Below, piece by piece: positions 27,731 to 51,792 of a stretch of DNA of 64,000 bases. Both the position numbers and the translations under genes were made by a program. Each line of letters starts with the position of its first letter. Within the stretch, counting starts at the first letter, position 1. The stretch lies in NCBI RefSeq assembly GCF_051014685.1, contig NW_027478880.1:344099-408098 (forward strand). Reading direction: 5' to 3'. The stretch is from Ptiloglossa arizonensis (Eukaryota; Arthropoda; Insecta; Hymenoptera; Colletidae). The notes below the pieces were generated by a model that worked only from the letters and a program-made list of their open reading frames with translations, made no database searches and was not told the origin of the DNA.

Positions 27731-28261
27731 AGAATGGCCTAGGGAAAAAATACACATACCGTTGTAATCGGGCGAGTTTCTACTTTCAGATGCAACAGGA
27801 ATTTTTGGGTTAGGTCAATCCGTTCGCGAGATATGGGAGTTTGAAGCCAAGGAATGGTTGAGAAGACAACAAATATTTCGCACTTCTGCTGCTCCAAACG
27901 CTTAACCAGAATGGCCTAGGGTTAAAATACACATACCGCTGTAATCGGGCGAGTCTCTACTTTCAGATGCAACGGGAATTTTTGGGTTAGGTCAATTCGT
28001 TCGCGAGATATGGGAGTTTGACGCTAAGAAATGGTTGAGAAGACAACAAATTTTTCGCAATTCTGCTGCTCCAAACGCTTAACCAGAATGGCCTAGGGAA
28101 AAAATACACATACCGTTGTAATCGGGCGAGTTTCTACTTTCAGATGCAATAGGAATTTTTGGGTTAGGTCAATCCGTTCGCGAGATATGGGAGTTTGAAG
28201 CCAAGAAATGGTTGAGAAGGCAAAAAATTTTTCGCAATTCTGCTGCTCCAAACGCTTAACC
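27731..28261 (+). repeat. Three-monomer segment duplicated 4248 bp downstream
   Basis: Markers CCAAGGAATGG, GGGTTAAAATACAC, GAGTCTCTACTTTCAG, GCAACGGGAATTTTT and AATTCGTTCGC recur at 31979-32509, exactly 24 monomers later. Adjacent blocks sit at a 20-monomer offset, so the four-monomer difference records a separate insertion or duplication between them. Confidence 0.85.
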
Positions 28262-29323
28262 AGAATGGCCTAGGTAAAAAATACACATACCGCTGTAATC
28301 GGGCGAGTTTCTACTTTCAGATGCAACAGGAATTTTTGGTTTAGGTCAATCCGTTCGCGAGATATGGGAGTTTGAAGCTAAGAAATGGTTGAGAATACAA
28401 AAACTTTTTCGCACTTCTGCTGCTCCAAACGCTTAACCAGAATGGCCTAGGGAAAAAATACACATGCCGTTGTAATCGGGCGAGTTTCTACTTTCAGATG
28501 CAACAGGAATTTTTGGGTTATGTCAATCCGTTCGCGAGATATGGGAGTTTGAAGCTAAGAAATGGTTGAGAAGGCAAAAAATTTTTCGGAATTCTGCTGC
28601 TCCAAACGCTTAACCAGAATGGCCTAGGGAAAAAATACACATACCTTTGTAATCGGGCGAGTTTCTACTTTCAGATGCAACAGGAATTTTTGGGTTAGGT
28701 CAATCCGTTCGCGAGATATGGGAGTTTGAAGCTAAGAAATGGTTGAGAAGACAACAAATTTTTCGCACTTCTGCTGCGCCAAACGCTTAACCAGAATGGC
28801 CTAGTGAAAAAATACACATACCGTTGTAATCGGGCGAGTTTCTACTTTCAGATGCAATTGGAATTTTTGGGTTAGGTCAATCCGTTCGCGAGATATGGGA
28901 GTTTGAAGCCAAGAAATGGTTGAGAAGGCAAAAAATTTTTCGCAATTCTGCTGCTCCAAACGCTTAACCAGAATGGCCTAGGGAAAAAATACACATACCG
29001 TTGTAATCGGGCGAGTTTCGACTTTCAGATGCAACAGCAATTTTTGGGTTAGGTCAATCCGTTCGCGAGATATGGGAGTTTGAAGCTAAGAAATGGTTGA
29101 GAAGACAACAAATTTTTCGCACTTCTGCTGCTCCAAACGCTTAACCAGAATGGCCTAGTGAGAAAATACACACACCGTTGTAATCGGGCGAGTTTCTACT
29201 TTCAGATGCAATTGGAATTTTTGGGTTAGGTCAATCCGTTCGCGAGATATGGGAGTTTGAAGCCAAGAAATGGTTGAGAAGGCAAAAAATTTTTCGCAAT
29301 TCTGCTGCTCCAAACGCTTAACC
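28262..29323 (+). repeat. Six-monomer tandem HOR, copy 1 (1062 bp)
   Basis: The six monomers carry, in order, CCTAGGTAAAAAA with ATACAAAAAC; ACATGCCG with CGGAATTCTG; ACATACCTTTG with GCTGCGCCAAAC; GCAATTGG; GATGCAACAGCAATTTTT; and AGTGAGAAAATACACACACC. The same series follows 1062 bp later with no difference noticed in these markers. Confidence 0.92.
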
Positions 29324-30385
29324 AGAATGGCCTAGGTAAAAAATACACATACCGCTGTAATCGGGCGAGTTTCTACTTTCAGATGCAACAGGAATTTTTG
29401 GTTTAGGTCAATCCGTTCGCGAGATATGGGAGTTTGAAGCTAAGAAATGGTTGAGAATACAAAAACTTTTTCGCACTTCTGCTGCTCCAAACGCTTAACC
29501 AGAATGGCCTAGGGAAAAAATACACATGCCGTTGTAATCGGGCGAGTTTCTACTTTCAGATGCAACAGGAATTTTTGGGTTATGTCAATCCGTTCGCGAG
29601 ATATGGGAGTTTGAAGCTAAGAAATGGTTGAGAAGGCAAAAAATTTTTCGGAATTCTGCTGCTCCAAACGCTTAACCAGAATGGCCTAGGGAAAAAATAC
29701 ACATACCTTTGTAATCGGGCGAGTTTCTACTTTCAGATGCAACAGGAATTTTTGGGTTAGGTCAATCCGTTCGCGAGATATGGGAGTTTGAAGCTAAGAA
29801 ATGGTTGAGAAGACAACAAATTTTTCGCACTTCTGCTGCGCCAAACGCTTAACCAGAATGGCCTAGTGAAAAAATACACATACCGTTGTAATCGGGCGAG
29901 TTTCTACTTTCAGATGCAATTGGAATTTTTGGGTTAGGTCAATCCGTTCGCGAGATATGGGAGTTTGAAGCCAAGAAATGGTTGAGAAGGCAAAAAATTT
30001 TTCGCAATTCTGCTGCTCCAAACGCTTAACCAGAATGGCCTAGGGAAAAAATACACATACCGTTGTAATCGGGCGAGTTTCGACTTTCAGATGCAACAGC
30101 AATTTTTGGGTTAGGTCAATCCGTTCGCGAGATATGGGAGTTTGAAGCTAAGAAATGGTTGAGAAGACAACAAATTTTTCGCACTTCTGCTGCTCCAAAC
30201 GCTTAACCAGAATGGCCTAGTGAGAAAATACACACACCGTTGTAATCGGGCGAGTTTCTACTTTCAGATGCAATTGGAATTTTTGGGTTAGGTCAATCCG
30301 TTCGCGAGATATGGGAGTTTGAAGCCAAGAAATGGTTGAGAAGGCAAAAAATTTTTCGCAATTCTGCTGCTCCAAACGCTTAACC
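29324..30385 (+). repeat. Six-monomer tandem HOR, copy 2 (1062 bp)
   Basis: This is an adjacent copy of the preceding unit at an exact offset of 1062 bp, with all six marker sets in the same order. Its last monomer also begins the copy of the 20-monomer-offset duplication, so the six-monomer event is nested in a larger rearrangement. Confidence 0.92.
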
Positions 30386-31270
30386 AGAATGGCCTAGGGA
30401 AAAAATACACATACCGTTGTAATCGGGCGAGTTTCGACTTTCAGAAGCAATAGGAATTTTCGGGTTAGGTCAATCCGTTCGCGAGATATGGGAGTTTGAA
30501 GCAAAGAAATTGTTGAGAAGGCAACAAATTTTTCGCAATTCTGCTGCTCCAAACGCTTAACAAGAATGGCCTAGGGAAAAAATACACATACCGTTGTAAT
30601 CGGGCGAGTTTCTACTTTCAGATGCAACAGGAATTTTTGGGTTATGTCAATCCGTTCGCGAGATATGGGAGTTTGAAGCCAAGAAATGGTTGAGAAGGCA
30701 AACGATTTTTCGCAATACTGCTGCTCCAAACGCTTAACAAGAATGGCTTAGGGAAAAAATACACATACCGTTGTAATCGGGCGAGTTTCTACTTTCAGAT
30801 GCAACAGGAATTTGTCGGTTAGGTCAATCCGTTCGCGAGATATGGGAGTTTGAAGCCAAGAAATGGTTGAGAAGGCAAAAAATTTTTCGCAATTCTGCTG
30901 CTCCAAACGCTTAACCAGAATGGCCTAGGGAAAAAATACACATACCGTTGTAATCGGGCGAGTTTCTACTTTCAGACGCTACAGGAATTTTTGGGTTAGG
31001 TCAATCCGTTCGCGAGATATGGGAGTTTGAAGCCAAGAAATGGTTGAGAAGGCAAAAAATTTTTCGCAATTCTGCTTCTCCAAACGCTTAACCAGAATGG
31101 CCTAGGGTAAAAATACACATACCGCTGTAATCGGGCGAGTTTCGACTTTCAGAAGCAATAGGAATTTTTGGTTTAGGTCAATACGTTCGCGAGATATGGG
31201 AGTTTGAAGCCAAGAAATGGTTGAGAAGGCAAAAAATTTTTCGCAATTCTGCTGCTCCAAACGCTTAACA
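30209..31270 (+). repeat. Downstream copy of the 20-monomer-offset duplication
   Basis: This is the partner of 26669-27730. One difference noted is TAGGAATTTTCGGG near 30460 against TAGGAATTTTTGGG. The GGAATTTGTCGG variant then occurs once more at about 31341, outside the copied segment, which shows further local spread of that variant. Confidence 0.86.
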
Positions 31271-31978
31271 AGAATGGCCTAGGGAAAAAATACACATACC
31301 GTTGTAATCGGGCGAGTTTCTACTTTCAGATGCAACAGGAATTTGTCGGTTAGGTCAATCCGTTCGCGAGATATGGGAGTTTGAAGCCAAGAAATGGTTG
31401 AGAAGGCAAAAAATTTTTCGCAATTCTGCTGCTCCAAACGCTTAACCAGAATGGCCTAGGGAAAAAATACACATACCGTTGTAATCGGGCGAGTTTCTAC
31501 TTTCAGAAGCAATAGGAATTTTTGGGTTAGGTCAATCCGTTCGCGAGATATGGGAGTTTGAAGCCAAGAAATGGTTGGGAAGGCAAAAAATTTTTCGCAA
31601 TTCTGCTGCTCCAAACGCTTAACAAGAATGGCCTAGGGAAAAAATACACATACCGTTGTAATCGGGCGAGTTTCTACTTTCAGATGCAACAGGAATTTTT
31701 GGGTTAGGTCAATCCGTTCGCGAGATATGGGAGTTTGAAGCTAAGAAATCGTTGAGAAGACAACAAATTTTCCGCACTTCTGCTGCTCCAAACGCTCAAC
31801 CAGAATGGCCTAGGGAAAAAATACACATACCGTTGTAATCGGGCGAGTTTCTAGTTTCAGATGCAATTGGAATTTTTGGGTTAGGTCAATCCGTTCGCGA
31901 GATATGGGAGTTTGAAGCCAAGAAATGGTTGAGAAGGCAAAAAATTTTTCGCAATTCTGCTGCTCCAAACGCTTAACA

Positions 31979-32509
31979 AGAATGGCCTAGGGAAAAAATA
32001 CACATACCGTTGTAATCGGGCGAGTTTCTACTTTCAGATGCAACAGGAATTTTTGGGTTAGGTCAATCCGTTCGCGAGATATGGGAGTTTGAAGCCAAGG
32101 AATGGTTGAGAAGACAACAAATTTTTCGCACTTCTGCTGCTCCAAACGCTTAACCAGAATGGCCTAGGGTTAAAATACACATACCGCTGTAATCGGGCGA
32201 GTCTCTACTTTCAGATGCAACGGGAATTTTTGGGTTAGGTCAATTCGTTCGCGAGATATGGGAGTTTGACGCTAAGAAATGGTTGAGAAGACAACAAATT
32301 TTTCGCAATTCTGCTGCTCCAAACGCTTAACCAGAATGGCCTAGGGAAAAAATACACATACCGTTGTAATCGGGCGAGTTTCTACTTTCAGATGCAATAG
32401 GAATTTTTGGGTTAGGTCAATCCGTTCGCGAGATATGGGAGTTTGAAGCCAAGAAATGATTGAGAAGGCAAACAATTTTTCGCAATTCTGCTGCTCCAAA
32501 CGCTTAACC
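31979..32509 (+). repeat. Downstream copy of the 24-monomer-offset duplication
   Basis: This is the partner of 27731-28261. Differences include AAATTTTTCGC here against AAATATTTCGC in the upstream copy, and GAAATGATTGAG with CAAACAATTTTT in the last monomer here. Confidence 0.83.
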
Positions 32510-33925
32510 AGAATGGCCTAGGGAAAAAATACACATACCGCTGTAATCGGGCGAGTTTCTACTTTCAGATGCAACAGGAATTTTTGGTTTAAGTCAATCC
32601 GTTCGCGAGATATGGGAGTTTGAAGCTAAGAAATGGTTGAGAAGACAACAACTTTTTCGCACTTCTGCTGCTCCAAACGCTTAACCAGAATGGCCTAGGG
32701 AAAAAATACACATACCGTTGTAATCGGGCGAGTTTCGACTTTCAGAAGCAATAGGAATTTTTGGGTTAGGTCAATCCGTTCGCGAGAAATGGGAGTTTGA
32801 AGCCAAGAAATGGTTGGGAAGGCAAAAAATTTTTCGCAATTCTGCTGCTCCAAACGCTTAACAAGAATGGCCTAGGGAAAAAATACACATACCGTTGTAA
32901 TCGGGCGAGTTTCTACTTTCAGATGCAACAGGAATTTTTGGGTTAGGTCAATCCGTTCGCGAGATATTGGAGTTTGAAGCTAAGAAATCGTTGAGAAGAC
33001 AACAAATTTTTCGCACTTCTGCTGCTCCAAACGCTGAACCAGAATGGCCTAGGGAAAAAATACACATACCGTTGTAATCGGGCGAGTTTCTAGTTTCAGA
33101 TGCAATTGGAATTTTTGGGTTAGGTCAATCCGTTCGCGAGATATGGGAGTTTGAAGCCAAGAAATGGTTGAGAAGGCAAAAAATTTTTCGCAATTCTGCT
33201 GCTCCAAACGCTTAACCAGAATGGCCTAGGGAAAAAATACACATACCGCTGTAATCGGGCGAGTTTCTACTTTCAGATGCAACAGGAATTTTTGGTTTAA
33301 GTCAATCCGTTCGCGAGATATGGGAGTTTGAAGCTAAGAAATGGTTGAGAAGACAACAAATTTTTCGCACTTCTGCTGCTCCAAACGCTTAACCAGAATG
33401 GCCTAGGGAAAAAATACACATACCGTTGTAATCGGGCGAGTTTCGACTTTCAGAAGCAATAGGAATTTTTGGGTTAGGTCAATCCGTTCGCGAGATATGG
33501 GAGTTTGAAGCCACGAAATGGTTGGGAAGGCAAAAATTTTTCGCAATTCCTGCTGCTCCAAACGCTTAACAAGAATGGCCTAGGGAAAAAATACACATAC
33601 CGTTGTAATCGGGCGAGTTTCTACTTTCAGATGCAACAGGAATTTTTGGGTTAGGTCAATCCGTTCGCGAGATATGGGAGTTTGAAGCTAAGAAATGGTT
33701 GAGAAGGCAAAAAATTTTTCGCAATTCTGCTGCTCCAAACGCTTAACCAGAATGGCCTAGGGAAAAAATACACATACCGCTGTAATCGGGCGAGTTTCTA
33801 CTTTCAGATGCAATTGGAATTTTTGGGTTAGGTCAATCCGTTCGCGAGATATAGGAGTTTGAAGCCAAGAAATGGTTGAGAAGGCAAAAAATTTTTCGCA
33901 ATTCTGCTGCTCCAAACGCTTAACC
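32510..33925 (+). repeat. Four-monomer tandem duplication (708 bp x 2)
   Basis: Copies at 32510-33217 and 33218-33925 share GGTTTAAGTC (unique to this pair, 708 bp apart), then a CGACTTTCAGAAGCAATAGG monomer with TTGGGAAGG, a GATGCAACAGG monomer with GCTAAG, and a GCAATTGG monomer. They have diverged: copy 1 has GAAATCGTTGAG and CGCTGAACC, and copy 2 has CCACGAAATGG and two 1-bp length changes near 33537-33550 that cancel out. Related monomers with TTGGGAAGG, AAATCGTTG and CTAGTTTCAG also lie at 31.5-31.9 kb, seven monomers before copy 1's. Confidence 0.78.
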
Positions 33926-34279
33926 AGAATGGCCTAAGGAAAAAATACACATACCGTTGTAATCGGGCGAGTTTCTACTTTCAGACGCTACAGGAATTTT
34001 TGGGTTAGGTCAATCCGTTCGCGAGATATGGGAGTTTGAAGCCAAGAAATGGTTGAGAAGGCAAAAAATTCTTCGCAATTCTGCTGCTCCAAACGCTTAA
34101 CCAGAATGGCCTAGGGAAAAAATACACATACCGTTGTAATCGGGCGAGTCTCTACTTCCAGACGCTACAGGAATTTTTGGGTTAGGTCAATCCGTTCGCG
34201 AGATATGGGAGTTTGAAGCCAAGAAATGGTTGACAAGGCAAAAAATTTTTCGCAATTCTGCTGCTCCAAACGCTTAACC

Positions 34280-36934
34280 AGAATGGCCTAGGGAAAAAAT
34301 ACACATACCGTTATAATCGAGCGAGTTTCTACTTTCAGATGCAATAGGAATTTTTGGGTTAGGTCAATCCGTTCGCGAGATATGGGAGTTTGAAACTAAG
34401 AAATGGTTGAGAAGACAACAAATCTTTCGCACTTCTGCTGCTCTAAACGCTTAACCAGAATGGCCTAGGGGAAAAATACACATACCGTTGTAATCGGGCG
34501 AGTTTCTACTTTCAGATGCAATAGGAATTTTTGGGTTAGGTCAATCGGTTCGCGAGATATGGGAGTTTGAAGCCAAGAAATGGTTGAGAATGCAAAAAAT
34601 ATTTTTCAATTCTGCTGCTCCAAACGCTTAACCAGAATGGCCTAGGGAAAAAATACACATACCGTTGTAATCGGGCGAGTTTCTACTGTCAGATGCAACA
34701 GGAATTTTTGGGTTGGGTCAATCCGTTCGCGAGATATGGGAGTTTGAAGCCAAGAAATGGTTGAGAGGGCAAAAAATTTTTCGCATTTCTGCTGCTCCAA
34801 ACGCTTAACCAGAATGGCCTAGGGAAAAAATACACATACCGTTGTAATCGGGCGAGTTTCTACTTTCAGATGCAATAGGAATTTTTGAGTTAGGTCAATC
34901 CGTTCGCGAGATATGGGAGTTTGAAGCCAAGAAATGGTTGAGAAGGCAACAAATTTTTCGCAATTCTGCAGCTCCAAACGCTTAACCAGAATGGCCTAGG
35001 GAGAAAATACACATACCGTTGTAATCGGGCGAGTTTCTACTTTCAGATGCAATAGGAATTTTTGGGTTAGGTCAATCCGTTCGCGAGATAAGGGAGTTTG
35101 AAGCCAAGAAATGGTTGAGAAGGCAAAAAATTTTTCGCAATTCTGCTGCTCCAAACGCTTAAACAGACTGGCCTAGGGAAAAAATACAGATACCGTTATA
35201 ATCGGGCGAGTTTCTACTTTCAGATGCAACAGGAATTTTTGGGTTAGGTCAATCCGTTCGCGAGATATGGGAGTTTGAAGCTAAGAAATGGTTGAGAAGA
35301 CAACAGATCTTTCGCACTTCTGCTGCTCCAAACGCTTAACCAGAATGGCCTAGGGAAAAAATACACATACCGTTGTAATCGGGCGAGTTTCTACTTTCAG
35401 ATGCAATAGGAATTTTTGGGTTAGGTCAATCCGTTCGCGAGATATGGGAGTTTGAAGCCAAGAAATGGTTGAGAAGGCAAAAAATTCTTCGCAATTCTGC
35501 TGCTCCAAACGCTTAACCAGAATGGCCTAGGGAAAAAATACACATACCGTTGTAATCGGGCGAGTCTCTACTTCCAGACGCTACAGGAATTTTTGTGTTA
35601 GGTCAATCCGTTCGCGAGATATGGGAGTTTGAAGCCAAGAAATGGTTGAGAAGGCAAAAAATTTTTCGCAATTCTGCTGCTCCAAACGCTTAACCAGAAT
35701 GGCCTAGGGAAAAAATACAGATACCGTTATAATCGGGCGAGTTTCTACTTTCAGATGCAACAGGAATTTTTGGGTTAGGTCAATCCGTTCGCGAGATATG
35801 GGAGTTTGAAACTAAGAAATGGTTGAGAAGACAACAAATCTTTCGCACTTCTGCTGCTCCAAACGCTTAACCAGAATGGCCTAGGGAAAAAATACACATA
35901 CCGTTGTAATCGGGCGAGTTTCTACTTTCAGATGCAATAGGAATTTTTGGGTTAGGTCAATCCGTTCGCGAGATATGGGAGTTTGAAGCCAAGAAATGGT
36001 TGAGAAGGCAAAAAATTTTTCGCAATTCTGCTGCTCCAAACGCTTAACCAGAATGGCCTAGGGAAAAAATACACATACCGTTGTAATCGGGCGAGTCTCT
36101 ACTTCCAGGCGCTACAGGAATTTTTGGGTTAGGTCAATCCGTTCGCGAGATATGGGAGTTTGAAGCCAAGAAATGGTTGAGAAGGCAAAAAATTTTTCGC
36201 AATTCTGCTGCTCCAAACGCTTAACCAGAATGGCCTAGGGAAAAAATACACATACCGTTGTAATCGGGCGAGTTTCTACTTTCAGATGCAATAGGAATTT
36301 TTGGGTTAGGTCAATCCGTTCGCGAGATATGGGAGTTTGAAGCCAAGAAATGGTTGAGAAGGCAAAAAATTTTTCGCAATTCTGCTGCTCCAAACGCTTA
36401 ACCAGAATGGCCTAGGGAAAAAATACACATACCGTTGTAATCGGGCGAGTCTCTACTTCCAGGCGCTACAGGAATTTTTGGGTTAGGTCAATCCGTTCGC
36501 GAGATATGGGAGTTTGAAGCCAAGAAATGGTTGAGAAGGCAAAAAATTTTTCGCAATTCTGCTGCTCCAAACGCTTAACCAGAATGGCCTAGGGAAAAAA
36601 TACACATACCGTTGTAATCGGGCGAGTTTCGACTTTCAGATGCAATAGGAATTTTTGGGTTAGGTCAATCCGTTCGCGAGATATGGGAGTTTGAAGCCAA
36701 GAACTGGTTGAGAAGGCAACAAATTTTTCGCAATTCTGCTGCTCCAAACGCTTAACCAGAATGGCCTAGGGAAAAAATACACATACCGTTGTAATCGGGC
36801 GAGTTTCGACTTTCAGATGCAATAGGAATTTTTGGGTTAGGTCAATCCGTTCGCGAGATATGGGAGTTTGAAGCCAAGAAATGGTTGAGAAGGCAACAAA
36901 TCTTTCGCACTTCTGCTGCTCCAAACGCTTAACC
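34280..36934 (+). repeat. 15-monomer segment, upstream copy of a 25-monomer-offset duplication
   Basis: This matches 38705-41360 at an offset of 4425-4426 bp. Shared rare variants are GCTCTAAACGC, TCAATCGGTTCGC, AATGCAAAAAATATTTTTCAA, CTACTGTCAG, GGGTTGGGTC, CTGCAGCTCC, GAGATAAGGG and CAACAGATCTTTCGC. The monomer at 36050-36226, of the CCAGGCGCT type, is the one whose counterpart downstream is mostly replaced by adapter sequence. Confidence 0.88.
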
Positions 36935-37111
36935 AGAATGGCCTAGGGAAAAAATACACATACCGTTGTAATCGGGCGAGTTTCTACTTTCAGATGCAAT
37001 AGGAATTTTTGGGTTAGGTCAATCCGTTCGCGAGATATGGGAGTTTGAAGCCAAGAAATGGTTGAGAAGGCAAAAAATTCTTCGCAATTCTGCTGCTCCA
37101 AACGCTTAACC
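35519..37111 (+). repeat. Nine-monomer HOR, copy 1 (1593 bp)
   Basis: The monomer order is CCAGACGCT with TTTTGTGTTAGG; TATAATC with GAAACTAAG; GATGCAATAGG; CCAGGCGCT; GATGCAATAGG; CCAGGCGCT; CGACTTTC with GAACTGG; CGACTTTC with CAACAAATCTTTCGCACTTC; GATGCAATAGG with AAATTCTTCGC. The same order, except in the last two monomers, follows at 37112-38704. Confidence 0.88.
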
Positions 37112-38704
37112 AGAATGGCCTAGGGAAAAAATACACATACCGTTGTAATCGGGCGAGTCTCTACTTCCAGACGCTACAGGAATTTTTGTGTTAGGTCAAT
37201 CCGTTCGCGAGATATGGGAGTTTGAAGCCAAGAAATGGTTGAGAAGGCAAAAAATTTTTCGCAATTCTGCTGCTCCAAACGCTTAACCAGAATGGCCTAG
37301 GGAAAAAATACAGATACCGTTATAATCGGGCGAGTTTCTACTTTCAGATGCAACAGGAATTTTGGGTTAGGTCAATCCGTTCGCGAGATATGGGGAGTTT
37401 GAAACTAAGAAATGGTTGAGAAGACAACAAATCTTTCGCACTTCTGCTGCTCCAAACGCTTAACCAGAATGGCCTAGGGAAAAAATACACATACCGTTGT
37501 AATCGGGCGAGTTTCTACTTTCAGATGCAATAGGAATTTTTGGGTTAGGTCAATCCGTTCGCGAGATATGGGAGTTTGAAGCCAAGAAATGGTTGAGAAG
37601 GCAAAAAATTTTTCGCAATTCTGCTGCTCCAAACGCTTAACCAGAATGGCCTAGGGAAAAAATACACATACCGTTGTAATCGGGCGAGTCTCTACTTCCA
37701 GGCGCTACAGGAATTTTTGGGTTAGGTCAATCCGTTCGCGAGATATGGGAGTTTGAAGCCAAGAAATGGTTGAGAAGGCAAAAAATTTTTCGCAATTCTG
37801 CTGCTCCAAACGCTTAACCAGAATGGCCTAGGGAAAAAATACACATACCGTTGTAATCGGGCGAGTTTCTACTTTCAGATGCAATAGGAATTTTTGGGTT
37901 AGGTCAATCCGTTCGCGAGATATGGGAGTTTGAAGCCAAGAAATGGTTGAGAAGGCAAAAAATTTTTCGCAATTCTGCTGCTCCAAACGCTTAACCAGAA
38001 TGGCCTAGGGGAAAAAATACACATACCGTTGTAATCGGGCGAGTCTCTACTTCCAGGCGCTACAGGAATTTTTGGTTAGGTCAATCCGTTCGCGAGATAT
38101 GGGAGTTTGAAGCCAAGAAATGGTTGAGAAGGCAAAAAATTTTTCGCAATTCTGCTGCTCCAAACGCTTAACCAGAATGGCCTAGGGAAAAAATACACAT
38201 ACCGTTGTAATCGGGCGAGTTTCGACTTTCAGATGCAATAGGAATTTTTGGGTTAGGTCAATCCGTTCGCGAGATATGGGAGTTTGAAGCCAAGAACTGG
38301 TTGAGAAGGCAACAAATTTTTCGCAATTCTGCTGCTCCAAACGCTTAACCAGAATGGCCTAGGGAAAAAATACACATACCGTTGTAATCGGGCGAGTTTC
38401 GACTTTCAGATGCAATAGGAATTTTTGGGTTAGGTCAATCCGTTCGCGAGATATGGGAGTTTGAAGCCAAGAAATGGTTGAGAAGGCAAAAAATTTTTCG
38501 CAATTCTGCTGCTCCAAACGCTTAACCAGAATGGCCTAGGGAAAAAATACACATACCGTTGTAATCGGGCGAGTCTCTACTTCCAGGCGCTACAGGAATT
38601 TTTGGGTTAGGTCAATCCGTTCGCGAGATATGGGAGTTTGAAGCCAAGAAATGGTTGAGAAGGCAAAAAATTTTTCGCAATTCTGCTGCTCCAAACGCTT
38701 AACC
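37112..38704 (+). repeat. Nine-monomer HOR, copy 2 (1593 bp), with single-base length errors
   Basis: This is the second copy, 1593 bp after the first. Four single-base length differences from copy 1 cancel out: GGAATTTTGGG (T lost, near 37360), ATGGGGAG (G gained, near 37392), CTAGGGGAAAAAATAC (G gained, near 38010) and TTTTTGGTTAGG (G lost, near 38074). The last two monomers differ from copy 1. Such changes are absent from copy 1, which fits consensus error as well as mutation. Confidence 0.85.
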
Positions 38705-40324
38705 AGAATGGCCTAGGGAAAAAATACACATACCGTTATAATCGGGCGAGTTTCTACTTTCAGATGCAATAGGAATTTTTGGGTTAGGTCAATCCGTTCG
38801 CGAGATATGGGAGTTTGAAACTAAGAAATGGTTGAGAAGACAACAAATCTTTCGCACTTCTGCTTGCTCTAAACGCTTAACCAGAATGGCCTAGGGGAAA
38901 AATACACATACCGTTGTAATCGGGCGAGTTTCTACTTTCAGATGCAATAGGAATTTTTGGGTTAGGTCAATCGGTTCGCGAGATATGGGAGTTTGAAGCC
39001 AAGAAATGGTTGAGAATGCAAAAAATATTTTTCAATTCTGCTGCTCCAAACGCTTAACCAGAATGGCCTAGGGAAAAAATACACATACCGTTGTAATCGG
39101 GCGAGTTTCTACTGTCAGATGCAACAGGAATTTTTGGGTTGGGTCAATCCGTTCGCGAGATATGGGAGTTTGAAGCCAAGAAATGGTTGAGAAGGCAAAA
39201 AATTTTTCGCATTTCTGCTGCTCCAAACGCTTAACCAGAATGGCCTAGGGAAAAAATACACATACCGTTGTAATCGGGCGAGTTTCTACTTTCAGATGCA
39301 ATAGGAATTTTGAGTTAGGTCAATCCGTTCGCGAGATATGGGAGTTTGAAGCCAAGAAATGGTTGAGAAGGCAAAAAATTTTTCGCAATTCTGCAGCTCC
39401 AAACGCTTAACCAGAATGGCCTAGGGAGAAAATACACATACCGTTGTAATCGGGCGAGTTCTCTACTTTCAGATGCAATAGGAATTTTTGGGTTAGGTCA
39501 ATCCGTTCGCGAGATAAGGGAGTTTGAAGCCAAGAAATGGTTGAGAAGGCAAAAAATTTTTCGCAATTCTGCTGCTCCAAACGCTTAAACAGACTGGCCT
39601 AGGGAAAAAATACAGATACCGTTATAATCGGGCGAGTTTCTACTTTCAGATGCAACAGGAATTTTTGGGTTAGGTCAATCCGTTCGCGAGATATGGGAGT
39701 TTGAAGCTAAGAAATGGTTGAGAAGACAACAGATCTTTCGCACTTCTGCTGCTCCAAACGCTTAACCAGAATGGCCTAGGGAAAAAATACACATACCGTT
39801 GTAATCGGGCGAGTTTCTACTTTCAGATGCAATAGGAATTTTTGGGTTAGGTCAATCCGTTCGCGAGATATGGGAGTTTGAAGCCAAGAAATGGTTGAGA
39901 AGGCAAAAAATTCTTCGCAATTCTGCTGCTCCAAACGCTTAACCAGAATGGCCTAGGGAAAAAATACACATACCGTTGTAATCGGGCGAGTCTCTACTTC
40001 CAGACGCTACAGGAATTTTTGTGTTAGGTCAATCCGTTCGCGAGATATGGGAGTTTGAAGCCAAGAAATGGTTGAGAAGGCAAAAAATTTTTCGCAATTC
40101 TGCTGCTCCAAACGCTTAACCAGAATGGCCTAGGGAAAAAATACAGATACCGTTATAATCGGGCGAGTTTCTACTTTCAGATGCAACAGGAATTTTTGGG
40201 TTAGGTCAATCCGTTCGCGAGATATGGGAGTTTGAAACTAAGAAATGGTTGAGAAGACAACAAATCTTTCGCACTTCTGCTGCTCCAAACGCTTAACCAG
40301 AATGGCCTAGGGAAAAAATACACA

Positions 40325-40341
40325 TACCGTTGTAATCGGGC
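40325..40341 (+). other. CENP-B-box-like 17-mer (representative of most monomers)
   Basis: The 17 bases TACCGTTGTAATCGGGC lie at monomer positions 27-43. Compared with the mammalian CENP-B box (core NTTCGNNNNANNCGGGN), they keep the spaced CG, A and CGGG but have AC in place of TT, so 7 of 9 core bases match. A similar 17-mer is present in nearly every monomer, with C or A for T at the sixth base in parts of block A (CCGCTG, CCGTAG). I saw no monomer that restores TTCG at this place. The match could be chance, and nothing shows that a CENP-B-like protein binds it. Confidence 0.3.
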
Positions 40342-40476
40342 GAGTTTCTACTTTCAGATGCAATAGGAATTTTTGGGTTAGGTCAATCCGTTCGCGAGAT
40401 ATGGGAGTTTGAAGCCAAGAAATGGTTGAGAAGGCAAAAAATTTTTCGCAATTCTGCTGCTCCAAACGCTTAACCA

Positions 40477-40606
40477 CTCTCAACAACAACAACGGAGGAG
40501 GAGGAAAAGAGAGAGACTCTCTCTCTCAACAACAACAACGGAGGAGGAGGAAAAGAGAGAGAATCTCTCTCAACAACAACAACGGAGGAGGAGGAAAAGA
40601 GAGAGA
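40477..40606 (+). other. Three tandem PacBio SMRTbell adapter copies (assembly contamination)
   Basis: This stretch has no relation to the satellite. It consists of three units, each with a CT-rich stem (ATCTCTCTC), four AAC triplets, GGAGGAGGAGG, AAAA and a GAGAGAGA stem. That is the reverse complement of the 45-base blunt hairpin adapter used in PacBio SMRTbell libraries, as I know it. Copy 1 (40477-40516) lacks about the first four bases. Copy 2 (about 40518-40562) is preceded by an extra CT. Copy 3 (40563-40606) matches 44 of 45 bases, lacking only the final T. The right edge is uncertain by a few bases because GAGA is shared with satellite sequence. The satellite resumes as GAGAAGGC at 40605. 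An 80-codon open frame across the region is adapter translated with flanking satellite and should not be annotated as a gene. Confidence 0.97.
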
Positions 40607-41537
40607 GAAGGCAAAAAATTTTTCGCAATTCTGCTGCTCCAAACGCTTAACCAGAATGGCCTAGGGAAAAAATACACATACCGTTGTAATCGGGCGAGTT
40701 TCTACTTTCAGATGCAATAGGAATTTTTGGGTTAGGTCAATCCGTTCGCGAGATATGGGAGTTTGAAGCCAAGAAATGGTTGAGAAGGCAAAAAATTTTT
40801 CGCAATTCTGCTGCTCCAAACGCTTAACCAGAATGGCCTAGGGAAAAAATACACATACCGTTGTAATCGGGCGAGTCTCTACTTCCAGGCGCTACAGGAA
40901 TTTTTGGGTTAGGTCAATCCGTTCGCGAGATATGGGAGTTTGAAGCCAAGAAATGGTTGAGAAGGCAAAAAATTTTTCGCAATTCTGCTGCTCCAAACGC
41001 TTAACCAGAATGGCCTAGGGAAAAAATACACATACCGTTGTAATCGGGCGAGTTTCGACTTTCAGATGCAATAGGAATTTTTGGGTTAGGTCAATCCGTT
41101 CGCGAGATATGGGAGTTTGAAGCCAAGAACTGGTTGAGAAGGCAACAAATTTTTCGCAATTCTGCTGCTCCAAACGCTTAACCAGAATGGCCTAGGGAAA
41201 AAATACACATACCGTTGTAATCGGGCGAGTTTCGACTTTCAGATGCAATAGGAATTTTTGGGTTAGGTCAATCCGTTCGCGAGATATGGGAGTTTGAAGC
41301 CAAGAAATGGTTGAGAAGGCAACAAATCTTTCGCACTTCTGCTGCTCCAAACGCTTAACCAGAATGGCCTAGGGAAAAAATACACATACCGTTGTAATCG
41401 GGCGAGTTTCTACTTTCAGATGCAATAGGAATTTTTGGGTTAGGTCAATCCGTTCGCGAGATATGGGAGTTTGAAGCCAAGAAATGGTTGAGAAGGCAAA
41501 AAATTTTTCGCAATTCTGCTGCTCCAAACGCTTAACC

Positions 41538-42243
41538 AGAATGGCCTAGGGAAAAAATACACATACCGTTGTAATCGGGCGAGTCTCTACTTCCAGGCGC
41601 TACAGGAATTTTTGGGTTAGGTCAATCCGTTCGCGAGATATGGGAGTTTGAAGCCAAGAAATGGTTGAGAAGGCAAAAAATTTTTCGCAATTCTGCTGCT
41701 CCAAACGCTTAACCAGAATGGCCTAGGGAAAAAATACACATACCGTTGTAATCAGGCGAGTTTCGACTTTCAGATGCAATAGGAATTTTTGGGTTAGGTC
41801 AATCCGTTCGCGAGATATGGGAGTTTGAAGCCAAGAACTGGTTGAGAAGGCAACAAATTTTTCGCAATTCTGCTGCTCCAAACGCGTAACCAGAATGGCC
41901 TAGGGAAAAAATACACATACCGTTGTAATCGGGCGAGTTTCTACTTTCAGATGCAATAGGAATTTTTGGGTTAGGTCAATCCGTTCGCGAGATATGGGAG
42001 TTTGAAGCCAAGAAATGGTTGAGAATGCAAAAAATTTTTCGCATTTCTGCTGCTCCAAACGCTTAACCAGAATGCCCTAGGGAAAAAAAACATACCGTTG
42101 TAATCGGGCGAGTTTCTACTTTCAGATGCAATAGGAATTTTTGGGTTAGGTCAATCCGTTCGCGAGATATAGGAGTTTGAAGCCAAGAAATGGTTGAGAA
42201 GGCAAAAAATTTTTCGCAATTCTGCTGCTCCAAACGCTTAACC
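41538..42243 (+). repeat. Four-monomer module with A8 short monomer, copy 1
   Basis: The order is CCAGGCGCT; CGACTTTC with GAACTGG and CAACAAATTTTT; GATGCAATAGG with AATGCAAAAAA and CGCATTTC; then an A8 monomer (GGGAAAAAAAACATACC) with ATGCCCTAGGG and GATATAGGAG. All of these recur at 42775-43480, 1237 bp later (seven monomers minus 2 bp). Confidence 0.86.
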
Positions 42244-42774
42244 AGAATGGCCTAGGGAAAAAATACACATACCGTTGTAATCGGGCGAGTTTCGACTTTC
42301 AGATGCAATAGGAATTTTTGGGTTAGGTCAATCCGTTCGCGAGATATGGGAGTTTGAAGCCAAGAACTGGTTGAGAAGGCAACAAATTTTTCGCAATTCT
42401 GCTGCTCCAAACGCTTAACCAGAATGGCCTAGGGAAAAAATACACATACCGTTGTAATCGGGCGAGTTTCGACTTTCAGATGCAATAGGAATTTTTGGGT
42501 TAGGTCAATCCGTTCGCGAGATATGGGAGTTTGAAGCCAAGAAATGGTTGAGAAGGCAACAAATCTTTCGCATTTCTGCTGCTCCAAACGCTTAACCAGA
42601 ATGGCCTAGGGAAAAAATACACATACCGTTGTAATCGGGCGAGTTTCTACTTTCAGATGCAATAGGAATTTTTGGGTTAGGTCAATCCGTTCGCGAGATA
42701 TGGGAGTTTGAAGCCAAGAAATGGTTGAGAAGGCCAAAAATTTTTCGCAATTCTGCTGCTCCAAACGCTTAACC

Positions 42775-43480
42775 AGAATGGCCTAGGGAAAAAATACACA
42801 TACCGTTGTAATCGGGCGAGTCTCTACTTCCAGGCGCTACAGGAATTTTTGGGTTAGGTCAATCCGTTCGCGAGATATGGGAGTTTGAAGCCAAGAAATG
42901 GTTGAGAAGGCAAAAAATTTTTCGCAATTCTGCTGCTCCAAACGCTTAACCAGAATGGCCTAGGGAAAAAATACACATACCGTTGTAATCGGGCGAGTTT
43001 CGACTTTCAGATGCAATAGGAATTTTTGAGTTAGGTCAATCCGTTCGCGAGATATGGGAGTTTGAAGCCAAGAACTGGTTGAGAAGGCAACAAATTTTTC
43101 GCAATTCTGCTGCTCCAAACGCTTAACCAGAATGGCCTAGGGAAAAAATACACATACCGTTGTAATCGGGCGAGTTTCTACTTTCAGATGCAATAGGAAT
43201 TTTTGGGTTAGGTCAATCCGTTCGCGAGATATGGGAGTTTGAAGCCAAGAAATGGTTGAGAATGCAAAAAATTTTTCGCATTTCTGCTGCTCCAAACGCT
43301 TAACCAGAATGCCCTAGGGAAAAAAAACATACCGTTGTAATCGGGCGAGTTTCTACTTTCAGATGCAATAGGAATTTTTGGGTTAGGTCAATCCGTTCGC
43401 GAGATATAGGAGTTTGAAGCCAAGAAATGGTTGAGAAGGCAAAAAATTTTTCGCAATTCTGCTGCTCCAAACGCTTAACC
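42775..43480 (+). repeat. Four-monomer module with A8 short monomer, copy 2
   Basis: This is the partner of 41538-42243, with the private ATGCCCTAGGG (43312) and GATATAGG. TTTTGAGTTAGG near 43028 is a difference from copy 1. Closely related modules recur around 45.3, 47.0, 50.0, 50.9, 53.6, 55.5 and 57.1 kb. Confidence 0.84.
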
Positions 43481-44365
43481 AGAATGGCCTAGGGAAAAAA
43501 TACACATACCGTTGTAATCGGGCGAGTTTCTACTTTCAGATGCACTAGGAATTTTTGGGTTAGGTCAATCCGTTTGCGAGATGTGGGAGTTTGAAGCCAA
43601 GAAATGGTTGAGGAGGCAAAAAATTTTTCGCTATTCTGCTGCTCCAAACGCTTAAACAGAATGGCCTAGGGAAAAAATACAGATACCGTTATAATCGGGC
43701 GAGTTTCTACTTTCAGATGCAACAGGAATTTTTGGGTTAGGTCAATCCGTTCGCGAGATATGGGAGTTTGAAGCTAAGAAATGGTTGAGAAGACAACAAA
43801 TCTTTCGCACTTCTGCTGCTCCAAACGCTTAACCAGAATGGCCTAGGGGAAAAATACACATACCGTTGTAATCGGGCGAGTTTCGACTTTCAGATGCAAT
43901 AGGAATTTTTGGGTTAGGTCAATCCGTTCGCGAGATATGGGAGTTTGAAGCCAAGAAATGGTTGAGAAGGCAAAAAATTTTTCGCAATTCTGCGGCTCCA
44001 AACGCTTAAACAGAATGGCCTAGGGAAAAAATACAGATAGCGTTGTAATCGGGCGAGTTTCTACTTTCAGATGCAACAGGAATTTTTGGGTTAGGTCAAT
44101 CCGTTCGCGAGATATGGGAGTTTGAAGCTAAGAAATGGTTGAGAAGGCAAAAAATTTTTCGCAATTCTGCGGCTCCAAAGGCTTAAACAGAATGGCCTAG
44201 GGAAAAAATACAGATACCGTTGTAATCGGGCGAGTTTCTACTTTCAGATGCAACAGGAATTATTGGGTTAGGTCAATCCGTTCGCGAGATATGGGAGTTT
44301 GAAGCCAAGAAATGGTTGAAAAGGCAAAAAATTTTTCGCAATTCTGCTGCTCCAAACGCTTAACC

Positions 44366-44542
44366 AGAATGGCCTAGGGAAAAAATACACATACCGTTGT
44401 AATCGGGCGAGTCTCTACTTCCAGGCGCTACAGGAATTTTTGGGTTAGGTCAATCCGTTCGCGAGATATGGGAGTTTGAAGCTAAGAAATGGTTGAGAAG
44501 ACAACAAATCTTTCGCACTTCTGCTGCTCCAAACGCTTAACC
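44366..44542 (+). repeat. Chimeric monomer (CCAGGCGCT front, GCTAAG/AACAAATC back)
   Basis: The front half carries GAGTCTCTACTTCCAGGCGCT, which I otherwise see only with GCCAAG and AAGGCAAAAAA in the back half. Here the back half is GCTAAG, AAGACAACAAATC and CGCACTTC, the haplotype that normally follows TATAATC with GATGCAACAGG. The next monomer (CTAGGGGAAAAATAC, CGACTTTC) is the usual successor of that second haplotype, as at 43.7-43.9 kb. This fits an exchange inside the monomer, somewhere between about positions 60 and 115. Confidence 0.75.
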
Positions 44543-45073
44543 AGAATGGCCTAGGGGAAAAATACACATACCGTTGTAATCGGGCGAGTTTCGACTTTCA
44601 GATGCAATAGGAATTTTTGGGTTAGGTCAATCCGTTCGCGAGATATGGGAGTTTGAAGCCAAGAAATGGTTGAGAAGGCAAAAAATTTTTCGCAATTCTG
44701 CGGCTCCAAACGCTTAAACAGAATGGCCTAGGGAAAAAATACAGATAGCGTTGTAATCGGGCGAGTTTCTACTTTCAGATGCAACAGGAATTTTTGGGTT
44801 AGGTCAATCCGTTCGCGAGATATGGGAGTTTGAAGCTAAGAAATGGTTGAGAAGGCAAAAAATTTTTCGCAATTCTGCTGCTCCAAACGCTTAACCAGAG
44901 TGGCCTAGGGAAAAAATAAACATACCGTTGTAATCGGGCCAGTTTCTACTTTCAGATGCAATAGGAATTTTTGGGTTAGGTCAATTCGTTCGCGAGATAT
45001 GGGAGTTTGAAGCCAAGAAATGGTTGAGAAGGCAAAAAATTTTTCGCAATTCTGCGGCTCCAAAGGCTTAAAC

Positions 45074-46841
45074 AGAATGGCCTAGGGAAAAAATACAGAT
45101 ACCGTTGTAATCGGGCGAGTTTCTACTTTCAGATGCAACAGGAATTATTGGGTTAGGTCAATCCGTTCGCGAGATATGGGAGTTTGAAGCCAAGAAATGG
45201 TTGAAAAGGCAAAAAATTTTTCGCAATTCTGCTGCTCCAAACGCTTAACCAGAATGGCCTAGGGAAAAAATACACATACCGTTGTAATCGGGCGAGTCTC
45301 TACTTCCAGGCGCTACAGGAATTTTTGGGTTAGGTCAATCCGTTCGCGAGATATGGGAGTTTGAAGCCAAGAAATGGTTGAGAAGGCAAAAAATTTTTCG
45401 CAATTCTGCTGCTCCAAACGCTTAACCAGAATGGCCTAGGGAAAAAATACACATACCGTTGTAATCGGGCGAGTTTCGACTTTCAGATGCAATAGGAATT
45501 TTTGGGTTAGGTCAATCCGTTCGCGAGATATGGGAGTTTGAAGCCAAGAACTGGTTGAGAAGGCAACAAATTTTTCGCAATTCTGCTGCTCCAAACGCTT
45601 AACCAGAATGGCCTAGGGAAAAAATACACATACCGTTGTAATCGGGCGAGTTTCTACTTTCAGATGCAATAGGAATTTTTGGGTTAGGTCAATCCGTTCG
45701 CGAGATATGGGAGTTTGAAGCCAAGAAATGGTTGAGAATGCAAAAAATTTTTCGCATTTCTGCTGCTTCAAACGCTTAACCAGAATGGCCTAGGGAAAAA
45801 AAACATACCGTTGTAATCGGGCGAGTTTCTACTTTCAGATGCAATAGGAATTTTTGGGTTAGGTCAATCCGTTCGCGAGATATGGGAGTTTGAAGCCAAG
45901 AAATGGTTGAGAAGGCAAAAAATTTTTCGCAATTCTGCTGCTCCAAACGCTTAACCAGAATGGCCTAGGGAAAAAATACACATACCGTTGTAATCGGGCG
46001 AGTATCTACTTTCAGATGCACTAGGAATTTTTGGGTTAGGTCAATCCGTTTGCGAGATGTGGGAGTTTGAAGCCAAGAAATGGTTGAGGAGGCAAAAAAT
46101 TTTTCGCAATTCTGCTGCTCCAAACGCTTAAACAGAATGGCCTAGGGAAAAAATACAGATACCGTTATAATCGGGCGAGTTTCTACTTTCAGATGCAACA
46201 GGAATTTTTGGGTTAGGTCAATCCGTTCGCGAGATATGGGAGTTTGAAGCTAAGAAATGGTTGAGAAGACAACAAATCTTTCGCACTTCTGCTGCTCCAA
46301 ACGCTTAACCAGAATGGCCTAGGGGAAAAATACACATACCGTTGTAATCGGGCGAGTTTCGACTTTCAGATGCAATAGGAATTTTTGGGTTAGGTCAATC
46401 CGTTCGCGAGATATGGGTGTTTGAAGCCAAGAAATGGTTGAGAAGGCAAAAAATTTTTCGCAATTCTGCGGCTCCAAACGCTTAAACAGAATGGCCTAGG
46501 GAAAAAATACAGATACCGTTGTAATCGGGCGAGTTTCTACTTTCAGATGCAACAGGAATTTTTGAGTTAGGTCAATCCGTTCGCGAGATATGGGAGTTTG
46601 AAGCTAAGAAATGGTTGAGAAGGCAAAAAATTTTTCGCAATTCTGCTGCTCCAAACGCTTAACCAGAGTGGCCTAGGGAAAAAATGAACATACCGTTGTA
46701 ATCGGGCCAGTTTCTACTTTCAGATGCAATAGGAATTTTTGGGTTAGGTCAATCCGTTCGCGAGATATGGGAGTTTGAAGCCAAGAAATGGTTGAGAAGG
46801 CAAAAAATTTTTCGCAATTCTGCGGCTCCAAAGGCTTAAAC
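45074..46841 (+). repeat. Ten-monomer HOR, copy 1 (1768 bp)
   Basis: Marked by GCGGCTCCAAAGGCTTAAAC just before the start (45062 and 46830), the CCAGGCGCT/CGACTTTC/AATGC/A8 series, GAGTATCTAC with GATGCACTAGG (46018 and 47786) and TTTGCGAGATGTGGG. The offset is 1768 bp. A related five-monomer stretch (44189-45073) precedes it and shares GGAATTATTGGG and GTTGAAAAGGC exactly 885 bp upstream. Confidence 0.86.
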
Positions 46842-48255
46842 AGAATGGCCTAGGGAAAAAATACAGATACCGTTGTAATCGGGCGAGTTTCTACTTTCAG
46901 ATGCAACAGGAATTTTTGGGTTAGGTCAATCCGTTCGCGAGATATGGGAGTTTGAAGCCAAGAAATGGTTGAGAAGGCAAAAAATTTTTCGCAATTCTGC
47001 TGCTCCAAACGCTTAACCAGAATGGCCTAGGGAAAAAATACACATACCGTTGTAATCGGGCGAGTCTCTACTTCCAGGCGCTACAGGAATTTTTGGGTTA
47101 TGTCAATCCGTTCGCGAGATATGGGAGTTTGAAGCCAAGAAATGGTCGAGAAGGCAAAAAATTTTTCGCAATTCTGCTGCTCCAAACGCTTAACCAGAAT
47201 GGCCTAGGGAAAAAATACACATACCGTTGTAATCGGGCGAGTTTCGACTTTCAGATGCAATAGGAATTTTTGGGTTAGGTCAATCCGTTCGCGAGATATG
47301 GGAGTTTGAAGCCAAGAACTGGTTGAGAAGGCAACAAATTTTTCGCAATTCTGCTGCTCCAAACGCTTAACCAGAATGGCCTAGGGAAAAAATACACATA
47401 CCGTTGTAATCGGGCGAGTTTCTACTTTCAGATGCAATAGGAATTTTTGGGTTAGGTCAATCCGTTCGCGAGATATGGGAGTTTGAAGCCAAGAAATGGT
47501 TGAGAATGCAAAAAATTTTTCGCATTTCTGCTGCTCCAAACGCTTAACCAGAATGGCCTAGGGAAAAAAAACATACCGTTGTAATCGGGCGAGTTTCTAC
47601 TTTCAGATGCAATAGGAATTTTTGGGTTAGGTCAATCCGTTCGCGAGATATGGGAGTTTGAAGCCAAGAAATGGTTGAGAAGGCAAAAAATTTTTCGCAA
47701 TTCTGCTGCTCCAAACGCTTAACCAGAATGGCCTAGGGAAAAAATACACATACCGTTGTAATCGGGCGAGTATCTACTTTCAGATGCACTAGGAATTTTT
47801 GGGTTAGGTCAATCCGTTTGCGAGATGTGGGAGTTTGAAGCCAAGAAATGGTTGAGGAGGCAAAAAATTTTTCGCAATTCTGCTGCTCCAAACGCTTAAA
47901 CAGAATGGCCTAGGGAAAAAATACAGATACCGTTATAATCGGGCGAGTTTCTACTTTCAGATGCAACAGGAATTTTTGGGTTAGGTCAATCCGTTCGCGA
48001 GATATGGGAGTTTGAAGCTAAGAAATGGTTGAGAAGACAACAAATCTTTCGCACTTCTGCTGCTCCAAACGCTTAACCAGAATGGCCTAGGGGAAAAATA
48101 CACATACCGTTGTAATCGGGCGAGTTTCGACTTTCAGATGCAATAGGAATTTTTGGGTTAGGTCAATCCGTTCGCGAGATATGGGAGTTTGAAGCCAAGA
48201 AATGGTTGAGAAGGCAAAAAATTTTTCGCAATTCTGCGGCTCCAAACGCTTAAAC
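46842..48255 (+). repeat. Ten-monomer HOR, copy 2 (first eight monomers)
   Basis: This copies the preceding unit at an offset of 1768 bp as far as GCGGCTCCAAACGCTTAAAC near 48240. After that the sequence departs (GGAATTCTTGGG, GGATTTTGAAGCC). Differences inside include GGTTATGTC and GGTCGAGAAGG near 47100-47150. Confidence 0.84.
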
Positions 48256-50025
48256 AGAATGGCCTAGGGAAAAAATACAGATACCGTTGTAATCGGGCGA
48301 GTTTCTACTTTCAGATGCAACAGGAATTCTTGGGTTAGGTCAATCCGTTCGCGAGATATGGGATTTTGAAGCCAAGAAATGGTTGAGAAGGCAACAAATT
48401 TTTCGCAATTCTGCTGCTCCAAACGCTTAACCAGAATGGCCTAGGGAAAAAATTCACATACCGTTGTAATCGGGCCAGTTTCTACTTTCAGATGCAATAG
48501 GAATTTTTGGGTTAGGTTAATGCGTTCGCGAGATATGGGAGTTTGAAGCCAAGAAATGTTTGAGAAGGCAAAAGATTTTTCGCAATTCTGCTGCTCCAAA
48601 CGCTTAACCAGAATGGCCTAGGGAAAAAATACACATACCGCTGTAATCGGGCGAGGTTCTACTTTCAGATGCAATAGGAATTTTTGGGTTAGGTCAATCC
48701 GTTCGCGAGATATGGGAGTTTGAACCCAAGAAATGGTTGAGAAGGCAAAAAATTTTTCGCAATTCTGCTGCTCCAAACGCTTAACCAGAATGGCCTAGGG
48801 AAAAAATACACATACCCTTGTAATCGGGCGAGTTTCTACCTTCAGATGCAATAGGAATTTTTGGGTTAGGTCAATCCGTTCGCGAGATATGGGAGTTTGA
48901 AGCCAAGAAATGGTTGAGAAGGCAAAAAATTTTTCGCAATTCTGCTGCTCCGAACGCTTAACCAGAATGGCCTAGGGAGAAAATACACATACCGTTGTAA
49001 TCGGGCGAGTTTCTACTTTCAGATGCAATAGGAATTTTTGGGTTAGGTCAATCCGTTCGCGAGATAAGGGAGTTTGAAGCCATGAAATGGTTGAGAAGGC
49101 AAAAAATTTTTCGCAATTCTGCTGCTCCAAACGCTTAAACAGAATGGCCTAGGGAAAAAATACAGATACCGTTATAATCGGGCGAGTTTCTACTTTCAGA
49201 TGCAACAGGAATTTTTGGGTTAGGTCAATCCGTTCGCGAGATATGGGAGTTTGAAGCTAAGAAATGGTTGAGAAGACAACAGATCTTTCGCACTTCTGCT
49301 GCTCCAAACGCTTAACCAGAATGGCCTAGGGAAAAAATACACATACCGTTGTAATCGGGCGAGTTTCTACTTTCAGATGCAATAGGAATTTTTGGGTTAG
49401 GTCAATCCGTTCGCGAGATATGGGAGTTTGAAGCCAAGAAATGGTTGAGAAGGCAAAAAATTCTTCGCAATTCTGCTGCTCCAAACGCTTAACCAGAATG
49501 GCCTAGGGAAATAATACACATACCGTTGTAATCGGGCGAGTCTCTACTTCCAGACGCTACAGGAATTTTTGGGTTAGGTCAATCCGTTCGCGAGATATGG
49601 GAGTTTGAAGCCAAGAAATGGTTGAGAATGCAAAAAATTTTTCGCAATTCTGCTGCTCCAAACGCTTAACCAGAATGGCCTAGGGAAAAAATACAGATAC
49701 CGTTATAATCGGGCGAGTTTCTACTTTCAGATGCAACAGGAATTTTTGGGTTAGGTCAATCCGTTCGCGAGATATGGGAGTTTGAAACTAAGAAATGGTT
49801 GAGAAGACAACAAATCTTTCGCACTTCTGCTGCTCCAAACGCTTAACCAGAATGGCCTAGGGAAAAAATACACATACCGTTGTAATCGGGCGAGTTTCTA
49901 CTTTCAGATGCAATAGGAATTTTTGGGTTAGGTCAATCCGTTCGCGAGATATGGGAGTTTGAAGCCAAGAAATGGTTGAGAAGGCAAAAAATTTTTCGCA
50001 ATTCTGCTGCTCCAAACGCTTAACC

Positions 50026-50909
50026 AGAATGGCCTAGGGAAAAAATACACATACCGTTGTAATCGGGCGAGTCTCTACTTCCAGGCGCTACAGGAATTTT
50101 TGGGTTAGGTCAATCCGTTCGCGAGATATGGGAGTTTGAAGCCAAGAAATGGTTGAGAAGGCAAAAAATTTTTCGCAATTCTGCTGCTCCAAACGCTTAA
50201 CCAGAATGGCCTAGGGAAAAAATACACATACCGTTGTAATCGGGCGAGTTTCGACTTTCAGATGCAATAGGAATTTTTGGGTTAGGTCAATCCGTTCGCG
50301 AGATATGGGAGTTTGAAGCCAAGAAATGGTTGAGAAGGCAACAAATTTTTCGCAATTCTGCTGCTCCAAACGCTTAACCAAAATGGCCTAGGGAAAAAAT
50401 ACACATACCGTTGTAATCGGGCGAGTTTCTACTTTCAGATGCAATAGGAATTTTTGGGTTAGGTCAATCCGTTCGCGAGATATGGGAGTTTGAAGCCAAG
50501 AAATGGTTGAGAATGCAAAAAATTTTTCGCAATTCTGCTGCTCCAAACGCTTAACCAGAATGGCCTAGGGAAAAAATACACATACCGTTGTAATCGGGCG
50601 AGTTTCTACTTTCAGATGCAACAGGAATTTTTGGGTTAGGTCAATCCGCTCGCGAGATATGGGAGTTTGAATCCAAGAAATGGTTGAGAAGGAAAAAAAT
50701 TTTTCGCATTTCTGCTGCTCCAAACGCTTAACCAGAATGGCCTAGGGAAAAAAAAACATACCGTTGTAATCGGGCGAGTTTCTACTTTCAGATGCAATAG
50801 GAATTTTTGGGTTAGGTCAATCCGTTCGCGAGATATGGGAGTTTGAAGCCAAGAAATGGTTGAGAAGGCAAAAAATTTTTCGCAATTCTGCTGCTCCAAA
50901 CGCTTAACC
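50026..50909 (+). repeat. Five-monomer module, tandem copy 1 (884 bp)
   Basis: The order is CCAGGCGCT; CGACTTTC with CAACAAATTTTT; AATGCAAAAAA; CCGCTCGCGAG with GAATCCAAG and AAGGAAAAAAA; and a short monomer with an A9 run. The next 883 bp repeat this order with an A8 run instead. The A9 run shifts the reverse reading frame by one base, which is why an 87-codon frame appears at 50636-50899; it is not a gene. Confidence 0.88.
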
Positions 50910-51792
50910 AGAATGGCCTAGGGAAAAAATACACATACCGTTGTAATCGGGCGAGTCTCTACTTCCAGGCGCTACAGGAATTTTTGGGTTAGGTCAATCC
51001 GTTCGCGAGATATGGGAGTTTGAAGCCAAGAAATGGTTGAGAAGGCAAAAAATTTTTCGCAATTCTGCTGCTCCAAACGCTTAACCAGAATGGCCTAGGG
51101 AAAAAATACACATACCGTTGTAATCGGGCGAGTTTCGACTTTCAGATGCAATAGGAATTTTTGGGTTAGGTCAATCCGTTCGCGAGATATGGGAGTTTGA
51201 AGCCAAGAAATGGTTGAGAAGGCAACAAATTTTTCGCAATTCTGCTGCTCCAAACGCTTAACCAGAATGGCCTAGGGAAAAAATACACATACCGTTGTAA
51301 TCGGGCGAGTTTCTACTTTCAGATGCAATAGGAATTTTTGGGTTAGGTCAATCCGTTCGCGAGATATGGGAGTTTGAAGCCAAGAAATGGTTGAGAATGC
51401 AAAAAATTTTTCGCAATTCTGCTGCTCCAAACGCTTAACCAGAATGGCCTAGGGAAAAAATACACATACCGTTGTAATCGGGCGAGTTTCTACTTTCAGA
51501 TGCAACAGGAATTTTTGGGTTAGGTCAATCCGCTCGCGAGATATGGGAGTTTGAATCCAAGAAATGGTTGAGAAGGAAAAAAATTTTTCGCATTTCTGCT
51601 GCTCCAAACGCTTAACCAGAATGGCCTAGGGAAAAAAAACATACCGTTGTAATCGGGCGAGTTTCTACTTTCAGATGCAATAGGAATTTTTGGGTTAGGT
51701 CAATCCGTTCGCGAGATATGGGAGTTTGAAGCCAAGAAATGGTTGAGAAGGCAAAAAATTTTTCGCAATTCTGCTGCTCCAAACGCTTAACC
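50910..51792 (+). repeat. Five-monomer module, tandem copy 2 (883 bp)
   Basis: This has the same five marker monomers as copy 1. The CCGCTCGCGAG variant is 884 bp downstream of its partner (50648 and 51532). The module appears again inside the larger units at about 53.6, 55.5 and 57.1 kb. Confidence 0.88.

Follow-up and report, generated by a model that had tools for sequence, protein, structure and literature searches.

Tandem SMRTbell adapter copies replace 130 bases of satellite DNA in register in an assembly of Ptiloglossa arizonensis

We analyzed a stretch of 64,000 nucleotides from the Ptiloglossa arizonensis assembly (referred to as the window), which from 1 to 64000 forms one tandem array of a 177-bp satellite (94% matches) at the end of contig C510. 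Within this array, positions 40477-40606 are occupied by a block of three tandem copies of the PacBio blunt SMRTbell adapter (45 nt), with lengths of 40, 46 and 44 nt. On the plus strand, all three are the reverse complement of the printed adapter. Copy 1 (40477..40516; 40 nt) lacks 4 bases at the start of the stem and the last T. Copy 2 (40517..40562; 46 nt) has a CT stem that is two bases longer and does not start with AT, and it is likewise without the last T. Copy 3 (40563..40606; 44 nt) is exact at 44 of 45 positions, the position of the last T being held by the first base of the satellite flank, a G. The left flank (1..40476, plus strand) and the right flank (40607..64000, plus strand), which reaches the end of contig C510, belong to the same array on the same strand and are in exact register with each other.

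The preliminary description of this DNA had read the block as three near-complete copies of a 45-base sequencing adapter, and the comparison with the published adapter agrees with that reading. A 30-nt core of the adapter is present in three exact copies (starting at 40482, 40528 and 40572 of the window) and was absent from 100 dinucleotide shuffles. The loop and purine parts of all three copies match the adapter of PMC8864876 with zero mismatches, the copies differing only in the stem bases at their ends. Local alignment of the adapter over the block, which had been proposed as a check, gave a best score of 44, compared to scores of at most 8 in the block-free 2-kb chunks (31 of 32) of a scan along the window and no more than 13 in its first 2 kb after single-base shuffling (200 shuffles). 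Open frames of 80 codons on the plus strand and 52 codons on the minus strand run over the block. A coding role was considered and rejected: these frames are the adapter's own triplet runs, extended into the satellite.

Scoring of 60-bp segments (step 30) against the satellite consensus gave a median of 56, and the five segments that scored below 39 all overlapped the block. The claim that the block is the only non-satellite DNA in the 64 kb thus holds at the resolution of 60-bp segments stepped by 30. The array itself shows further structure. Between 16001 and 24000 of the window, a lag of 5,831 bases gives an ungapped identity of 0.985, much higher than the 0.75 for a lag of 177, indicating a recent duplication or a higher-order repeat in the array. 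Late in the array, monomers of 182 bp at 58889, 60838 and 63138 are spaced 1,949 and 2,300 bases apart; these three monomers give a hint of a higher-order repeat.

How the block sits in the array had been missed in the preliminary description and is an addition made by the present analysis: the block takes the place of 130 satellite bases in register and adds zero length. Anchors flanking the block, at 40326 and 40680, are separated by 354 bases, exactly 2 × 177. Comparison of neighboring sequence at lags of 177 revealed that 130 satellite bases, from GAATGGCC to GGTTGA, are swapped for 130 adapter bases, and that the satellite resumes on the correct base. The 1,000 bases preceding the block were also compared, ungapped, with the array following it. 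Identity was 0.955 at lag 1239 and 0.956 at lag 1416, and fell to 0.27 once the latter was altered by 130 bases, the shift expected of an insertion. A simple insertion into the array was rejected, the register not being shifted by the block length (identity of 0.27 versus 0.96).

The assembly searched comprised 998.67 Mb in 2016 contigs. At a threshold of at most 2 mismatches, above which copies on other contigs would escape, the adapter core gave 272 forward and 23 reverse matches in this genome, while the reversed-pattern control gave 0 at the same threshold. The matches listed (the first 100) fell on 18 contigs, and 42 matches, including all 23 reverse ones, were in blocks on 17 of them; the other 253 forward matches fit on the remaining contig, C2008, which is a concatemer. 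Among the matches listed, the 17 block contigs carry 11 internal blocks and 6 blocks at a contig end. Counting damaged and partial copies, blocks contain two adapters in ten cases, three in three and four in four. All 17 blocks found border tandem repeats of few kinds: the internal blocks all lie in tandem repeats (ten in a 175-177-bp satellite, the block on C376 in a 7-bp repeat), and the neighbors of terminal blocks are the 177-bp satellite (three), a 7-bp repeat (two) and a weaker repeat of approximately 174-175 bp (C482). Adapter identity and recurrence across the assembly bear out the earlier claim of a library artefact; the adapter leftovers are a laboratory artefact of the kind published in PMC8864876, and not biology.

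Some of these contigs deserve separate mention. Over the 8 kb read, C343 and C566 are arrays of a 7-bp repeat (TATAACG type), and each has an adapter block at its contig end. C1954 (22,327 bp) and C1963 (21,613 bp) have an adapter block at the end and satellite in the last 5 kb read, and their lengths would suit single contaminated reads. A weak reverse match to the core at the C628 locus was discarded; it belongs to the satellite and carries 4 substitutions and 1 deletion.

The first 10,000 bases of C2008 (10,962 bp) are an adapter concatemer, mostly of a 43-bp unit, with 231 core matches and a 43-bp spacing in 227 of 230 intervals; its last 962 bases have room for the remaining 22 matches. 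Joints between adjacent adapters read GAGAGAGATCTCTCTC in 229 of 230 cases in these 10,000 bases, and in 15 of 28 cases in the 17 blocks, where seven other forms account for the other 13. This joint is the blunt joint between two complete adapters without its two middle bases. In adapter kit chemistry, overhang adapters carry a terminal T. The GAGAGAGATCTCTCTC joint would be expected of two hairpins with an 8-bp stem, such as overhang adapters minus the terminal T, and C2008 suggests that adapter dimers went through sequencing as small circles.

Adapter contamination of HiFi reads and of assemblies has already been published together with the filter HiFiAdapterFilt (PMC8864876), and the parts of that paper covered here print the 45-nt blunt SMRTbell adapter. 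They report that 89.6% of the adapters in HiFi reads (n = 152,000) are reverse-complemented and that the class met most often is adapter at the read's 5′ end. The present case resembles those cases, as far as covered, in the adapter itself, in the predominance of the reverse complement and of read 5′ ends, and in where adapters occur: within contigs that are otherwise continuous, at contig ends, and as tandem series in erroneous contigs. It differs from them in that each of the 17 blocks holds at least 2 copies and in that internal satellite blocks overwrite the array in register; the source speaks of 'errant insertion', and in-register replacement is unmentioned in the main-text parts covered.

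Outside this genome, a 34-nt core of the adapter had no exact match in a prokaryote genome collection, whose records may have been adapter-screened, and one exact match in viral contigs, on IMGVR_UViG_3300046167_000019 (33,739 bases). There it belongs to a complete 45-nt adapter (2335-2379 of the piece read), the outer end of which is the last base of the contig. This contig end resembles the terminal blocks described here in having the adapter in the same sense relative to the contig, and is unlike them in being a single copy without tandem and from an unrelated sample. This contig provides a separate, independent example of the contaminant at the same position.

Register was measured for the ten internal blocks in 175-177-bp satellite (script-measured lengths of 89 to 176 bases). 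The register error at the best lag was 0 in seven blocks (C53, C66, C86, C87, C188, C510 and C628), +1 in C79 and C148, and +8 in C47. Register at the best lag was thus kept within 1 base in nine of ten blocks and within 8 bases in all ten, whatever the block length. Under random independent phases, the chance of these outcomes is approximately 1e-15 and 7e-11, respectively. With a 150-base probe, best lags were 0 or +1 in nine blocks and again +8 in C47; for C53 the best lag with this probe was +1, level with a 0 lag after rounding. Individual lags spread over 0 to +2 in C79 and C148 and over 0 to +1 in C53; the resolution of the register test is therefore a few bases, not always one. The block on C376 is also in register, which says little given a period of only 7 bp.

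Orientation was evaluated after turning all blocks to read AAC...GGA. For all 11 internal blocks, matches between the 4.9-kb flanks were confined to the plus strand. For the window, where the flanks had been described as co-oriented and the block as something other than a simple read-through, the 4.9-kb flanks gave no minus-strand match at E 1e-5 and hence no inverted copy was found between them, in line with both statements. All six terminal blocks, turned in the same way, are at the left end of their contig, so that adapter is read before genomic sequence is reached, the arrangement found at the 5′ end of a read. In this the assembly resembles one made from HiFi reads that carry reverse-complement adapter at the 5′ end. 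Junctions, counted by eye, differ between the two sides of the block. On the right, the full stem end GAGAGAGAT is followed by the insert in 15 of 17 blocks, the exceptions without this standard joint being the window's own contig C510 and C566. On the left, an intact ATCTCTCTC is present in 3 of the 11 internal blocks and in 1 of the 6 terminal ones. These counts agree with a ligation joint on the right side and a read start on the left.

Together, these data make it highly probable that the block, shown to be unremoved SMRTbell adapter, was placed by the overlay of a contaminated HiFi read. A string-graph assembler would take the next read whole into the contig and tolerate its overhang. In the proposed sequence of events, three tandem adapters would have been left on the 5′ end of a HiFi read from the satellite, and the assembler would have matched this read, by its satellite part, to the preceding one. 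The overlap would then have been extended along the same diagonal, up to the first base of the contaminated read, and the contig sequence would have switched to that read from base 1, so that the adapter overhang would have overwritten an equal number of true satellite bases. Co-oriented flanks would follow from in-register replacement combined with a read-overlap layout. Points against overlay are the block on C47, out of register by 8 bases, and the missing standard right joint in C510 and C566, and the presence of tandem adapters ahead of a real insert is left without account by this model. More tentatively, the tandem adapters may show, to the base, where the assembler passed from one read to the next within satellite arrays, a proposal that we regard as somewhat short of an even chance.

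Other origins were weighed against read overlay. Two satellite fragments might have been joined via tandem adapters before sequencing and read as one insert. Such a chimeric library molecule would account for an adapter that sits between two co-oriented satellite stretches; random joining would, however, randomize the satellite phase, which is within 1 base at the best lag in 9 of 10 blocks, and the adapter-first arrangement of 6 of 6 terminal blocks also speaks against it. Random chimeras were rejected because the array register is kept, and we consider a chimeric origin in general unlikely. A consensus artefact within a single ZMW, in which the signal of an adapter dimer replaces part of a read and assembly overlay plays no role, would likewise preserve length roughly, and C2008 suggests the possible presence of adapter dimers. 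Such an artefact gives no reason to expect that 7 of 10 blocks have a register error of exactly 0 at the best lag, or that the six terminal blocks all face the same way, and we judge it very unlikely.

A missed adapter in one SMRTbell, where the read passes the insert and the adapter and returns along the other strand, is a known class of error with an inverted duplicate as its outcome (PMC8864876, legend of Fig. 1D). Because the flanks of all 11 internal blocks match on the plus strand only, the usual read-through of a single missed adapter is excluded; given also 2 to 4 adapters per block instead of one, the probability of this origin in any form is minimal. That the block is real genomic DNA, a microsatellite or insertion resembling the adapter by chance, could be argued from its presence in the assembly and within an 80-codon open frame. 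Against this stand the exact match to the adapter at 44 of 45 positions, the array's lack of any gain in length, and the adapter-concatemer contig in the same assembly. The sole match in viral contigs, where a contig terminates in a complete adapter, points the same way, and the 0 exact matches of the 34-nt core in the prokaryote genome collection count for little, those assemblies being possibly adapter-screened. Genomic DNA is accordingly an explanation of almost vanishing probability.

The satellite sequence beneath the block is lost and the join there is unsafe. Since replacement is in register, treating 40477-40606 as masked, unknown satellite of the same length agrees better with the data than excision does, and the join should be distrusted; excising the adapter and closing the gap would shorten the window's array by 130 bases. 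The array joins at adapter blocks on the 17 contigs are not to be trusted, and C2008 should be removed from the assembly. As all 11 internal blocks lie in tandem repeats, array order and length across the joins may be wrong, and if the adapters mark read switches, the joins may rest on a single contaminated read. If true, in-register replacement would be a general signature for finding such joins, even after the adapter has been masked.
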